Shown here piece by piece: positions 2,073 through 13,950 of a DNA stretch of 64,000 nucleotides. Origin of the DNA: Campylobacter corcagiensis (GTDB taxonomy: Bacteria; Campylobacterota; Campylobacteria; Campylobacterales; Campylobacteraceae). The DNA lies in the NCBI RefSeq assembly GCF_013201645.1, contig NZ_CP053842.1, forward strand, positions 1,178,001 through 1,242,000. Reading direction: 5' to 3'. Position numbers and translations under genes: made by a program. Numbering within the stretch: position 1 is the stretch's first letter; each line of letters opens with the position of its first letter. The notes under the pieces are model-generated. The model worked only from the letters and a program-made list of their open reading frames with translations, had not been told where the DNA came from and did not search any database.

Positions 2073-3398
2073 TTACTCAGCCTTTAAAAACTCAGACACT
2101 TCTAGAAGTATTAGTTCGTTATCATCAGCTTGATTTGGCTCACGGCTGCTTGATTTTGGATAGTTGTTGTCATTTCCAACTACGATATGACTATCATCAA
2201 CCATATCAACATTTTCTATCGTAAAGAAAGGAAATACAAATTTACCATCCACAAGTGGCTTTTTAGCAACGCCGTTTGGATCTTTGATATTCATCAAATC
2301 TATATAAGCTATCTTCTTAGCAATACCATCATCACCTAGTTTTACCTTATAAATTCTTTTGAATTTAGCTGGATTATCAAAGCACTTTTTAGTATCTTCG
2401 CCATCTTTGCACGCTTTATCCATAGTGCCTTCTGTATCATCACGCTCGATTATTAGGCCATATTTTTCATCTATCATGTTAAAATCACCAATAGAATTTC
2501 CATTATCTTCTAAGATATATTTCCAGCTTTTGCCTGTGTACTCATCTTTTGAAGTGTCTAGCTCTAGTATGCGTAAATAATCTTTTGAGTCAACATTTTC
2601 TTTTTTCATATCTGCTGTATATAAAGCACCTTCCAGTAGTGGATATAGCTTGCTACCATCTGGGCTTGATGCCATTCCTTCAAAGCCTTTTGAGCGTTTT
2701 ACTTGAAATTCAGGCATTTTACCATCAGGAGTACCAGGTAGAGTTAGTGCTGGATTATCAGGAGATTTAACAACCTTACCATCAACTACTGTTTCTATTA
2801 CTTTTACTACATTGCCGTCTTTGTCAGTCTTAAGTACATATGGTCCAAATTCTTCGCCGATATAGACAAAATCCCCTACAAACTGTATACTCTCAGGGTC
2901 AAAATCACCACCTGTAAGGTATCTCTCTTTTGTTCCTTCAGTTACGATTAAAAAATCAACGACGCGGTTTGGATCCTTTAAAAAAACACTTCTATCAGGT
3001 TTTACTTCACCGCTTTTAAAGTCCACATCATAAAAGTTATAGTAAAGCATACTATCTTTTGAGTTTTTCTTATTGCCTAGACCATTATCTGTGATGATAG
3101 CAAATTTATTATCTCCTAAGCTTAAAATACCAGAATGTCCCTGTCTTGGTTGACCTTCAAATGGATACATAACTCCAGTTGGTCTTCCATTTGATACACC
3201 CTCTATTGTTCCTAGTTTATCGCTTCTTTTATCGCCTGCGAATTTACCATTTACCTTTAGCATATCTGGAGCATCACTAGGTGCAGCGATAAAACTATCA
3301 TGACTAAGTATAGCATGACCTGCTAAAGTAGCGTCAAATTCTTTACTAGCAAAAAGCGAAGTAGCTAAAACAAAAGAAAAAAGTAGTGTTTTTTTCAT
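2073..3398 (-). CDS. Exported esterase-like phytase-family protein
   Basis: A 441-residue protein with a signal peptide (positive MKK, hydrophobic core to about residue 17, then FASKEFD) and a long beta-propeller-like body. It fits the 'esterase-like activity of phytase' family, with blocks such as GRPTGVMYPFEGQPRQGHSG, DFDPESIQFVGDFVYIGEEFGPY and SKGFEGMASSPDGSKLYPLLEG. Members are secreted or periplasmic and are thought to hydrolyse phosphoesters, though substrates are rarely known. Two cysteines (about residues 333 and 341) may form a disulfide. The gene stands alone between terminators. Its promoter carries a 9-bp direct repeat placed like a response-regulator box, which suggests regulation by a two-component system. 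Confidence 0.8.
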   Translation of the reverse strand: MKKTLLFSFVLATSLFASKEFDATLAGHAILSHDSFIAAPSDAPDMLKVNGKFAGDKRSDKLGTIEGVSNGRPTGVMYPFEGQPRQGHSGILSLGDNKFAIITDNGLGNKKNSKDSMLYYNFYDVDFKSGEVKPDRSVFLKDPNRVVDFLIVTEGTKERYLTGGDFDPESIQFVGDFVYIGEEFGPYVLKTDKDGNVVKVIETVVDGKVVKSPDNPALTLPGTPDGKMPEFQVKRSKGFEGMASSPDGSKLYPLLEGALYTADMKKENVDSKDYLRILELDTSKDEYTGKSWKYILEDNGNSIGDFNMIDEKYGLIIERDDTEGTMDKACKDGEDTKKCFDNPAKFKRIYKVKLGDDGIAKKIAYIDLMNIKDPNGVAKKPLVDGKFVFPFFTIENVDMVDDSHIVVGNDNNYPKSSSREPNQADDNELILLEVSEFLKAE

Positions 3399-3427
3399 AA
3401 AATCTCCTTATTAAAAATTGATGAGAT

Positions 3428-10870: not shown

Positions 10871-12010
10871 ATGATGAGTAATTTTAGCGTTGAAGAGAGC
10901 AAAAGGGTCTATGGTGCAAAGATGAAAGCCATCGGAGTTGGTGGCGGTGGTTGCAATATGATAAATCATATGATAAGAGAAGGACTTGATAGGATTGATT
11001 TGGCTGTTGCAAATACAGACGCTCAAGCACTTCAAGGATCACTTGCAAAAACAAGAATAACCCTTGGAGAAGGGATAACAAAAGGTCTTGGTGCTGGAAT
11101 GGATCCTGAGGTTGGTAAAAATGCAGCCGAAGAGAGCTATGATACATTAAAAGATGCACTTGAGTACTCAGATATCGTCTTTGTATCAGCTGGTCTTGGT
11201 GGTGGAACTGGTTCAGGCGCAGCTGCAGTTGTAGCAAGAGCAGCTAAAGAAAAACAAGCATTAACTATCGGTATTGTTACAACTCCTTTTAACTTTGAAG
11301 GTAAAAAACGCCAAAGAATAGCAAAAGAGTCAGTTGAAGAGCTTAAAAAAGAGTGTGATTCTATCATAGTTATACCAAACCAAAAACTCTTATCTATTAT
11401 AGATAAAAAAGCTGGAATAAAAGAGAGTTTTAAAGTTGTTGATGATGTTCTTGCAAGAGCTGTAACAGGCATGACATCAATCATACTCGATGCTGGCGAT
11501 AGCGATATAAACCTTGATTTTAAAGATGTAAAAAAGGTAATGTCACATAGAGGTTTAGCACTTATGGGCGTAGGTGCAAGCGAAGGTGATAATGCACCTG
11601 TTGAAGCACTTCAAGATGCTATACAATCTCCACTTCTTGATGATATGAGTATAAAAGGTGCGATGGGAGTTTTAGTACACTTTAAAATTCATCCCGATTG
11701 TCCACTACTTGAGATTGCAGCAGCTATGGAAGATGTTGTTACAGAAGCAGCTCATGAAAATGCTGATATATTCTTTGGAACCACAACCGATGCAAGTCTA
11801 GAAAATAACCGTGTAGAAGTTACCTTAATAGCAACAGGCTTTGAAGAAGAAAAAAAGGAAATGCCCAAAGAGAGCGTAGAAGATAAAAAAGAGACTACAA
11901 GTCCGATTTTTAGCAGAGAAAGAATTAGAAGAGTAAGTGGTGGAATCGACCTAAGCGAGTCATATGATATGCTCGATGAGCCTGCTTATCTTAGAAATAA
12001 ATTAGATTAA
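10871..12010 (+). CDS. ftsZ: Cell division protein FtsZ
   Basis: FtsZ is the tubulin-like GTPase that forms the Z ring. The 379 residues contain AIGVGGGGCNMINHMI (20-35), the tubulin signature GLGGGTGSGAA (108-118), NFEGKKR and the T7 loop ILDAGDSDINLDF. A variable acidic and basic linker is followed by the conserved tail DEPAYLRNKLD, which binds FtsA. The tail's 'PAYLR' is intact. AAAAAGGGGAT precedes the double ATG. It is the last gene of the ppiD-ftsA-ftsZ unit and ends at a perfect palindromic terminator. Confidence 0.97.
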   Translation: MMSNFSVEESKRVYGAKMKAIGVGGGGCNMINHMIREGLDRIDLAVANTDAQALQGSLAKTRITLGEGITKGLGAGMDPEVGKNAAEESYDTLKDALEYSDIVFVSAGLGGGTGSGAAAVVARAAKEKQALTIGIVTTPFNFEGKKRQRIAKESVEELKKECDSIIVIPNQKLLSIIDKKAGIKESFKVVDDVLARAVTGMTSIILDAGDSDINLDFKDVKKVMSHRGLALMGVGASEGDNAPVEALQDAIQSPLLDDMSIKGAMGVLVHFKIHPDCPLLEIAAAMEDVVTEAAHENADIFFGTTTDASLENNRVEVTLIATGFEEEKKEMPKESVEDKKETTSPIFSRERIRRVSGGIDLSESYDMLDEPAYLRNKLD

Positions 12011-12027
12011 TAAAATCATTCCCCTTT

Positions 12028-12055
12028 ATCTTTGGGCTAAATTTAGCCCAAAGAT
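12028..12055. terminator. Bidirectional palindromic terminator between ftsZ and the DUF59 gene
   Basis: A perfect 28-base palindrome: ATCTTTGGGCTAAA followed by its exact reverse complement. It fills the gap between the two convergent genes and abuts the DUF59 stop codon at 12056. The flanks are AT-rich rather than pure T runs, so termination in either direction is likely but not strong. Confidence 0.75.
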
Positions 12056-12343
12056 TTAATTAAGTGCTTTTCTAACCTCATCTGTTGCCATAAAGATACT
12101 CCAAACTGGCTCCCAAACTAACTCTATCTCACAGCTACTAACACCTTCAACTCTTAGCGCTGCTTCTTTTACCCAATCTAAAATTAGCTCATGTAAAGGA
12201 CAAGCCCTAGTTGATAGCGTCATTTTTATATCTGCTTTGCCATTACTAAATTTTACGCCATATATAAACCCTAAAGAGACAATATCAAAGCCGATCTCAG
12301 GATCAACTATCTTTCTTAACTCATCATAAATTCTATCTATCAC
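12056..12343 (-). CDS. DUF59/MIP18-family metal-sulfur cluster protein
   Basis: This 95-residue DUF59 protein (SufT/PaaD/MIP18 family) has the DPEIGFDIVSLGFIYGV opening and the STRACPLHELILDW segment carrying the family cysteine. Relatives help mature Fe-S clusters. The frame opens at TTG 12355, but GGAG (12352-12349) is spaced correctly for the GTG at 12343, so I prefer that start. The alternatives are 4 codons longer at most. The 5' end overlaps the upstream membrane-protein gene, giving coupling. As last gene of the FNR-box operon it may mature a redox protein under oxygen limitation. Confidence 0.82.
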   Translation of the reverse strand: MIDRIYDELRKIVDPEIGFDIVSLGFIYGVKFSNGKADIKMTLSTRACPLHELILDWVKEAALRVEGVSSCEIELVWEPVWSIFMATDEVRKALN

Positions 12344-13508
12344 CACTAACTCCAAATTTACTAAATTTAAGTATGTTTATAACATTTATCATAAAAAGTA
12401 TAACGCTAACGCCCATAAATAAAATAGCTAAAAAACTACAACCAATAATAGCAAAAATAACACCTAAAACATTAAAAATCAGTGAAAATAAAGCTATATT
12501 TTTCATAACCATATCTTCAAGAAGTGGAACTTTTGCTTTGCCAACAAATGGTGATATATAGTGATACCAAACAAGAAATTGCAAAATTTTATAAATATGA
12601 CCCACTATAAAAGCGTATAAAAACCCAAAAATAACGCAAATTATCCAAGCTTCGTTTTTAAGTATAAAAAGTAAAATACTAAGAAGCAAAAATATCATAC
12701 TAGCTACTATATTTAAATTCCAATAATCCCACGCCTTTCTTTGGCGTTTTTTTAGCATAAGTCCCACTTGAGCTACAAATCCAACCAAACTAAGGCATAT
12801 CCAAATAATTGATACTCTATATTCAGCCCCTAAAACAGCTCCCCCACAAACATAAAGTCCAGCTGAGATAAAATAGAGTCTAAAACTTACATTTCCACAT
12901 AAAGAAAACATCGGCATTAACACACTTGTTGAGCCAAGAAGAATAAAATATATAAATCCTAGCACAAAATATATGTGATAATTAAGTAAAAGCATGAAGT
13001 CTAAATTTAAAGCTCCAACTAACACAAAAAGCAAAGCATAACCAAGTAAAATTCCAATAAGCAAAAATATACCAGCTATAAAAAGAGCATAATACGCAAA
13101 ATTTCTAACCATTGAACTTTTAAAACTTAAAAGATATGTAGTGCAAAAATAGACTAAACTAACAAACAAAATCGTTCCGCCACCATGCATCATCCCAACG
13201 CTTTGCTTTAAAAGTCCAAAGGCAAATACAAAAACACCAAATGCATAAATAACTAAATTTATCATAGCAAATTTAGTTATGTAAAACTCTTTTTCTAAAA
13301 TAACAGATGTTAGTTGGTAAAGTGCTCCTATGATAATACTCACAACAAAACCAACTAGAAAAATATGCAAAAATCCAGCCGTAGGAAGTGCGGTAATTGC
13401 GTTAAAATCAGCCAAAAAGTAAGAAAATATACTTAAAACTAAAAACAAAAACCCAACTATAAAATATCCACTAACTAACCTAAATGGCGCCACAAAAGAT
13501 GTAATCAC
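12333..13508 (-). CDS. Polytopic membrane protein resembling NnrS/haem-copper subunit I-like proteins
   Basis: A 391-residue protein with about 12 hydrophobic helices and almost no soluble part. Several helices carry histidines in otherwise apolar sequence (GFLHIFLVG, MMHGGG, LLNYHIYFVLG, FIVGHIYKI, VWYHYISPF). This recalls haem- or copper-binding membrane proteins of the NnrS and haem-copper oxidase type. I cannot assign a family with certainty. It lies between DUF2249 and DUF59 genes, a grouping commonly met around nitric-oxide and denitrification functions, behind an FNR-type promoter. A quinol- or NO-related role is inference. Confidence 0.7.
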   Translation of the reverse strand: MITSFVAPFRLVSGYFIVGFLFLVLSIFSYFLADFNAITALPTAGFLHIFLVGFVVSIIIGALYQLTSVILEKEFYITKFAMINLVIYAFGVFVFAFGLLKQSVGMMHGGGTILFVSLVYFCTTYLLSFKSSMVRNFAYYALFIAGIFLLIGILLGYALLFVLVGALNLDFMLLLNYHIYFVLGFIYFILLGSTSVLMPMFSLCGNVSFRLYFISAGLYVCGGAVLGAEYRVSIIWICLSLVGFVAQVGLMLKKRQRKAWDYWNLNIVASMIFLLLSILLFILKNEAWIICVIFGFLYAFIVGHIYKILQFLVWYHYISPFVGKAKVPLLEDMVMKNIALFSLIFNVLGVIFAIIGCSFLAILFMGVSVILFMINVINILKFSKFGVSGDR

Positions 13509-13511
13509 AAT

Positions 13512-13841
13512 TTATCCTTTACAATCTGCTTTAATATCACCCAAACTCATGCCATCTTTTAGACTAAACTCAAGCTTTACAAGCCCATTTTCAAGGTCAG
13601 TTTTTTCATAATTAACGCTATTTTCTATCTTTTTAATCAGTCCAATTGGAAATTTATGATTTATCATAATAACTTTTCTAGCCCTATCTGGTAAGAATTT
13701 TAAAGCAATAATAGCATTTACCATCGGTTCTGGCGGAACGCATTTACTACTGTCAAAACCAATAAATTTATCTTTTTTATAAAAATCTACAGTTGCATCA
13801 TCTACGCTAAATTTCTCCCAGCCATCAAAATGATTTTTCAT
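13512..13841 (-). CDS. DUF2249 domain protein
   Basis: The 109-residue protein matches DUF2249, a small TusA-like fold. The motif SSKCVPPEPMVNAIIALKFL (31-50) carries the conserved PPEPM and a cysteine at 34. A further cysteine is third from the end. Such proteins are found with nitrite/NO-reducing and haem-copper genes, where they may deliver sulfur or metal, but the chemistry is unsettled. It is the first gene of the operon. GGAG precedes the ATG, and the promoter has a perfect TTGAT-N4-ATCAA box at -41.5. Confidence 0.82.
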   Translation of the reverse strand: MKNHFDGWEKFSVDDATVDFYKKDKFIGFDSSKCVPPEPMVNAIIALKFLPDRARKVIMINHKFPIGLIKKIENSVNYEKTDLENGLVKLEFSLKDGMSLGDIKADCKG

Positions 13842-13870
13842 TTTATCTCCTAAATTTGAAATTTGATATC

Positions 13871-13912
13871 ATTATATAAGAATTTTGTAGAAATTTAGTT
13901 GATTTTTATCAA
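13871..13912 (-). promoter_or_regulatory. Class II FNR/CRP-type promoter
   Basis: TTGATAAAAATCAA (13912-13899, minus strand) is a perfect FNR consensus. It is separated by 22 bases from a perfect TATAAT (13876-13871). With a start point about 7 bases later (near 13864), the box centre falls at -41.5, the class II activation position. GGAG and the ATG of the DUF2249 gene follow after a leader of about 23 bases. Confidence 0.8.
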
Positions 13913-13923
13913 GATTTTAAGCT

Positions 13924-13950
13924 TTTAAGGGGCGAATTTAACCCCTTAAA
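13924..13950 (-). terminator. Hairpin terminator after purH
   Basis: TTTAAGGGG and CCCCTTAAA form a 9-bp stem with a 9-base loop, about 15 bases after the purH stop on the minus strand. T-rich sequence follows. It separates the purL-dnaJ-purH unit from the FNR-type promoter. Confidence 0.75.

Follow-up and report, generated by a model that had tools for sequence, protein, structure and literature searches.

A three-gene operon on the minus strand of the window, the 64,000-nucleotide stretch of the Campylobacter corcagiensis genome analysed here, is probably an accessory module induced by nitrogen oxides, one that would combine haem-based handling of NO with the maturation or repair of metal centres, rather than a module under an oxygen-sensing FNR. 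The operon comprises a gene for a putative DUF2249-type protein (gene 1), one for a membrane protein predicted to adopt the fold of haem-copper oxidase subunit I (gene 2) and one for a MIP18/DUF59 metal-sulfur cluster assembly factor (gene 3), preceded by a conserved CRP/FNR-type operator.

Gene order and conservation of the operon

The three open reading frames run from 13841 to 13512, from 13508 to 12333 (GTG start) and from 12355 or 12352 (alternative putative starts) to 12056, confirming the three genes behind a box described in a sequence-only reading of this DNA. Relatives of gene 2 are found in 70 of 153 genomes of Campylobacteraceae, and the trio has the identical order in 20/20 of the longer family loci. 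A genome scan with a single sequence returned nothing; searching 84,980 species genomes with an alignment as query gave 80 further loci, nearly all labelled Campylobacterota. Gene 1 lies 5′ and gene 3 lies 3′ of gene 2 in nearly all of these 80, and gene order is constant in nearly all of the 100 loci (20 family and 80 wider). PHROGs gave no match.

Folding energies identify a hairpin on either side of the operon. The first, between purH and the operator (13924–13950, minus strand; −12.9 kcal/mol, z −2.7), is likely the purH terminator, parting the operon from the upstream gene. The second, directly 3′ of the gene 3 stop codon and common to the convergent ftsZ (12028–12055; −18.3 kcal/mol, z −4.1), is a possible bidirectional terminator of gene 3 and ftsZ.

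Several loci depart from the simple trio. In free-living Campylobacterota, gene 3 is often followed by a gene for an FmdE-domain protein of about 200 amino acids (for example L119:2196-2801), present in 20 of the 80 loci, which may be a fourth component of the module. A Sulfurovum sp. locus (L178:11277-13488) carries two near-copies of a CRP/FNR gene (11668-12330 and 12826-13488) together with an additional, partial match to gene 3; a tandem duplication just 3′ of the trio would produce this arrangement. At L065 (G151:C10 55011-56163), in a draft genome, the gene 2 homologue is broken into two frames, by a frameshift or a sequencing error.

Promoter geometry and the candidate regulator

The operator, TTGATAAAAATCAA, of the DNR/Nss type within the CRP/FNR class, spans 13899–13912 on the minus strand, and a TATAAT −10 element lies 22 nt 3′ of it (13871–13876). 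When TATAAT is set at −12 to −7, the box is centred at −41.5, so that the class II geometry noted from the sequence is upheld. No −35-like hexamer at normal spacing was found for the operon promoter, which thus shows the combination typical of class II CRP/FNR promoters: a TTGAT-N4-ATCAA-type operator at −41.5, a good −10 and a poor −35.

Counted across the genome, the box string by itself is not enriched: 1.69 Mb contain 12 perfect boxes and 8 copies of the reversed pattern used as control, and TTGA-N6-TCAA occurs 88 times compared with 83 for its control. The significance of the operon box comes instead from its position and conservation. Of 107 distinct sequences upstream of this operon in Campylobacterota, 80 contain TTGA-N6-TCAA (0.8% in shuffles), the exact motif being absent from about a quarter of the set. 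In all 80 box-bearing upstream regions the best −10 lies 21–23 nt past the box (28% in shuffles), and in 49 of the 80 the spacing is exactly 22 nt.

Two other perfect boxes deserve mention. One lies within the window at 2284-2297, inside a minus-strand open reading frame (about 2080-3400), and is probably due to chance because it falls in a coding stretch. The other, the palindromic TTGATTATAATCAA (G000:C1:757566-757579; L013 position 2067), is 27 nt 5′ of an open reading frame for an MlaE-family permease; it has no −10 at class II spacing and could be a repressor-type site or a chance occurrence.

The sequence-only reading had suggested searching the genome for CRP/FNR proteins and for further boxes. 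Only one cNMP-domain CRP/FNR protein is encoded in the whole genome (G000:C1:1079035-1079664), more than 110 kb from the operon. Among about 50 inspected TTGA-N6-TCAA sites, one other is intergenic and well placed, with a −10 (TATACT) at the same spacing: it precedes nrfH-nrfA. The recognition helix of the sole regulator reads PETFSR, with P180-E181. E181 is a specificity position, and TTGATnnnnATCAA is the DNR box, while C. jejuni NssR has A180-Q181 and the box TTAAC (PMC1274295). The earlier argument that a family member other than NssR would be needed here was therefore sound, and such a protein exists. The helix is shared: PETxSR occurs in 22 of 23 CRP/FNR open reading frames adjoining the trio elsewhere in Campylobacterota, the 23rd being a short fragment. 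In the genus that we label g4, one homologue (L215) carries AQ at this position and others PES or AES; a further CRP/FNR homologue in one g4 genome (G096:C1:27763-28308) is interrupted by several stop codons and appears to be a decaying regulator gene.

The only cysteines of the sole regulator are Cys152 and Cys192, and the N-terminal cluster that would bind the 4Fe-4S centre of FNR is missing, which makes an oxygen-sensing FNR unlikely. A cNMP-fold regulator without FeS cysteines, E at position 181 and an FNR-like box before nitrogen-oxide genes together correspond to the DNR/Nss type. The Nss regulators of Wolinella, whose sites read TTGA-N6-TCAA, switch on nap, nrf and nos upon nitrate, NO or N2O (PMC11539149, PMC6682613, PMC12285233). 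The sequence comparisons therefore suggest that a CRP/FNR activator of DNR/Nss type probably controls the operon, in keeping with the CRP/FNR control first proposed. This protein would resemble C. jejuni NssR, Wolinella NssA-C and Pseudomonas DNR in lacking FeS cysteines, in its FNR-like box and in its nrf target; NssR, however, has TTAAC boxes and globins, whereas this genome has TTGAT boxes and no globin gene. An oxygen-regulated, micro-aerobic module under a true FNR and unconnected with nitrogen oxides would account for the perfect FNR consensus and the class II geometry, but we regard it as very improbable given the missing cysteine cluster, a gene context of nitrogen-oxide metabolism and a review that records no FNR ortholog in Campylobacterota (PMC6682613). 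The oxygen response suggested in the sequence-only reading is accordingly one point that we would set aside.

Predicted structures of the three products

Gene 2 (12333–13508, minus strand) encodes a 391-residue protein modelled with 12 helices (pLDDT 95.3). The model matches cbb3 CcoN (prob 1.0, TMq 0.69) and NorB/cNOR (TMq 0.61), with bo3 and aa3 oxidases also among the matches. COX1 matches were obtained for 28 of 79 gene 2 relatives (best 3.3e-13), the window protein itself having no family match. Since a PDB sequence search with the gene 2 membrane profile yielded nothing, the fold assignment rests on the model, the COX1 matches of relatives and the order of motifs. A profile alignment with CcoN laid helix 2 on helix 10 at low probability and was dropped for residue mapping. 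On this evidence the protein is predicted to have the fold of the haem-copper oxidase superfamily, with its 12 helices in the subunit I arrangement, which gives substance to the haem-copper connection drawn earlier for the membrane protein.

NnrS and CcoN/NorB had both been put forward as structural comparisons, and the agreement is with the latter pair. NnrS was rejected as an identity for gene 2, as no PF05940 match occurs in 79 members. A profile comparison with NnrS gave a weak local similarity offset by one 4-helix unit, probably owing to the repeat that occurs three times within the fold. Both are 12-helix membrane proteins linked to NO-responsive regulons, but the conserved NnrS histidines (H61, H314 and H336, L273 numbering) form another pattern, and Ensifer carries NnrS and a gene 2 homologue near each other as separate genes.

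The description of the protein as histidine-rich was inaccurate, there being 5 histidines in 391 residues; three of them occupy conserved positions within the membrane. H48 (TM2) and H178 (TM6) are invariant in 84/84 sequences, including those from Thermus, Ensifer and haloarchaea, so that these two histidines are conserved among homologues, a point on which the sequence-only reading had staked its proposal. H304 (TM10) is conserved among Campylobacterota and absent outside the phylum. At residue 205, after helix 6 (about 12894-12896), nearly every Campylobacterota relative has His, whereas the window protein has Gly; as other residues occupy 205 outside the phylum, the change does not clearly amount to lost function. 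Gene 2 shares with CcoN and NorB the fold and the helix-2 and helix-6 histidines, but is shorter and has neither the helix-7 His-His pair nor the helix-10 HxH (GHIY here). Its role as a canonical catalytic subunit of an oxidase or NO reductase was rejected, the six-His ligand set being incomplete and the CuB histidine pair missing. Judged from the alignment and the model, H48 and H178 would most likely suit one bis-His haem and no binuclear centre.

Pei, Li, Kinch and Grishin reportedly described, in 2014, haem-copper oxidase homology (HCOH) proteins with 12 helices, two conserved histidines and a presumed single haem in a denitrification context. We take gene 2, as a 12-helix homologue with two conserved histidines, to belong with proteins so defined; what differs here is the stand-alone operon with DUF59 and a DNR/Nss-type box. 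The link to DUF2249 is credited to Pei et al. 2014 in PMC11218638. Neither the paring down of the ligands to two histidines in the gene 2 family nor the conservation of the DNR/Nss-box operon throughout Campylobacterota seems to have been described in the searchable literature.

Gene 1 (13512–13841, minus strand) encodes a 109-residue DUF2249/COG4309-like protein whose model (pLDDT 87) matches the SirA/TusA-like structure 3hz7 (prob 1.0). The TusA cysteine is missing and PPEPM stands in place of CPxP, with P37, P39 and M40 invariant; sulfur transfer of the TusA type is unlikely for this reason. The window protein itself misses the Pfam model PF10006 (DUF2249) and 8 of 19 relatives match it weakly (best E 0.0011). 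The DUF2249 label given on first reading, putative for the window protein, draws its support from these relatives, the PPEPM motif and the predicted TusA-like fold.

Gene 3 (12056–12355, minus strand), which overlaps the end of gene 2, encodes a SufT/PaaD-like protein of about 98 residues. Its identity as a DUF59 protein, also read from the sequence at the outset, is solid (PF01883, 59.2 bits against a gathering cut-off of 23.5), and D17, P18 and E19 (DPE) and C51 are invariant. SufT or PaaD proper was rejected, all four NCBIfam equivalog scores lying under their cut-offs (SUF_assoc 79.9 vs 143.4; SufT 62.7 vs 202.6; haloarchaeal PaaD 85.7 vs 180; PaaD 35.1 vs 108.15).

Genomic context and possible function

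Elsewhere the trio sits among nap, nar, nir, nor and haem d1 genes, bearing out the link to NO and denitrification suggested for it. Within 5 kb of the trio, the 80 Campylobacterota loci include genes for CRP/FNR proteins (21), NapA (17), siroheme decarboxylase AhbAB/NirDL (15), NapG (12), CysG-type (12) and CobA-type (9) proteins, NapH (8, named from sequence only) and NirJ (6). An Ensifer plasmid carries a nor operon, hemN, DUF2249, the membrane protein, DUF2249, DUF59, NnrS, nirK and Crp/Fnr; a Thermus plasmid a nar operon, two DUF2249 genes, protoglobin, the membrane protein and DUF59; and Haloprofundus nirK, three DUF2249 genes and the membrane protein. The gene 2-type protein is annotated as hypothetical on all three plasmids. 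Haloarchaeal DUF2249 genes are up-regulated during denitrification (PMC11218638). The Thermus nar cluster with DrpA/DrpB (PMC6282519; L303) is similar in having DUF2249, a haem-copper oxidase-like membrane protein and a metal-sulfur factor 3′ of nar, and differs in its extra protoglobin and hypothetical gene, its multi-domain DUF2249 protein DrpB and its regulators DnrS/DnrT. The parts belong to known families without a settled function, and clusters in Thermus and rhizobia already contain the same combination.

The C. corcagiensis genome has no gene for nosZ, NnrS, globin, Hcp or hemerythrin; its one COX1-family gene scores like the CcoN genes of relatives, and NorB is absent. As nosZ, NorB and NnrS are all missing, the trio is tied to no single denitrification enzyme. 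A tie to nosZ was considered and rejected: the two are correlated (48 of 61 nosZ-bearing genomes have the trio), yet this genome lacks nosZ. The trio and a globin occur together in 1 of 153 Campylobacteraceae genomes against 15.6 expected, an exclusion that reflects few independent events and is no statistical proof, because most globins are in one genus. The trio is found in 0/49 genomes of genus g4. Elsewhere in the genome, a very large open reading frame (L009:797-4000; G000:C1:271996-275200) with a signal peptide, WDGSGVTVGI near its start and dense short tandem repeats at its end is a candidate repeat-rich surface protein.

In the nitrogen-oxide module that we favour, the sole DNR/Nss-type activator would bind the −41.5 box and recruit RNA polymerase in response to nitrate, nitrite or NO, and would co-induce nrfHA. 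The gene 2 product would be non-catalytic; most likely it holds a single b-type haem, with His48 of helix 2 and His178 of helix 6 on either side, and it would bind NO or pass electrons within the membrane. Acting with it, the products of genes 1 and 3 would serve the maturation or repair of metal centres, whether Fe-S, non-haem iron or haem, in nitrogen-oxide enzymes or in targets damaged by NO. A maturation role is favoured because Thermus DUF2249 mutants make the nitrate reductase protein yet show little of its activity (PMC6282519). Weighing against the nitrogen-oxide module are the absence of nosZ, NorB and NnrS from this genome, the loss of H205, the lack of genome-wide enrichment of the box and the quarter of upstream regions without its exact form.

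The main rival to the maturation role is sensing, in which the haem protein and DUF2249 would sense NO, nitrate or redox state and feed back on the CRP/FNR regulator. Sensing has been proposed for Thermus DrpA/DrpB, which render nar expression nitrate-dependent (PMC6282519); CRP/FNR genes lie within 5 kb of the trio in 21/80 loci, and the catalytic metal site is lost in the gene 2 product, as is often so in sensors. A sensor would not be expected to include a MIP18/DUF59 metal-centre factor, however, and with the regulator gene more than 110 kb away the operon looks like a target rather than a partner, so that we give sensing a minority share of the probability.

The nearby nap, nor, nir and haem d1 genes, together with the lowered nitrate reductase activity of Thermus drp mutants despite normal protein (PMC6282519), could also point to a dedicated assembly factor that inserts iron or haem into one enzyme, be it NO reductase, Nap or NrfA. 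We consider this unlikely, as NorB and nosZ are absent here and the whole of genus g4 is without the trio. Species of the C. jejuni group run Nap and Nrf without the trio, so neither system strictly needs it. A further version, in which the trio acts as an enzyme that itself consumes NO, with a minimal one-haem protein of haem-copper oxidase fold loaded with iron by its DUF59 and DUF2249 partners, seems to us quite doubtful; if true, the trio would replace the globin system in campylobacters that have no globins, NO reductase, Hcp or hemerythrin-type repair proteins.

For the nitrogen-oxide module favoured here, the comparison with the C. jejuni group is instructive: there NO is handled by NssR-controlled globins, whereas C. 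corcagiensis, with no globin, NorB, NnrS, Hcp, hemerythrin or nosZ, keeps the trio. The operon, predicted to be co-regulated with nrfHA, is conserved across Campylobacterota and turns up again in the denitrification gene clusters of Thermus and rhizobia and, partially, in those of haloarchaea. It offers a small, deletable unit in which to ask what haem-copper oxidase-fold proteins do when they have no active site, and what DUF2249 proteins do.
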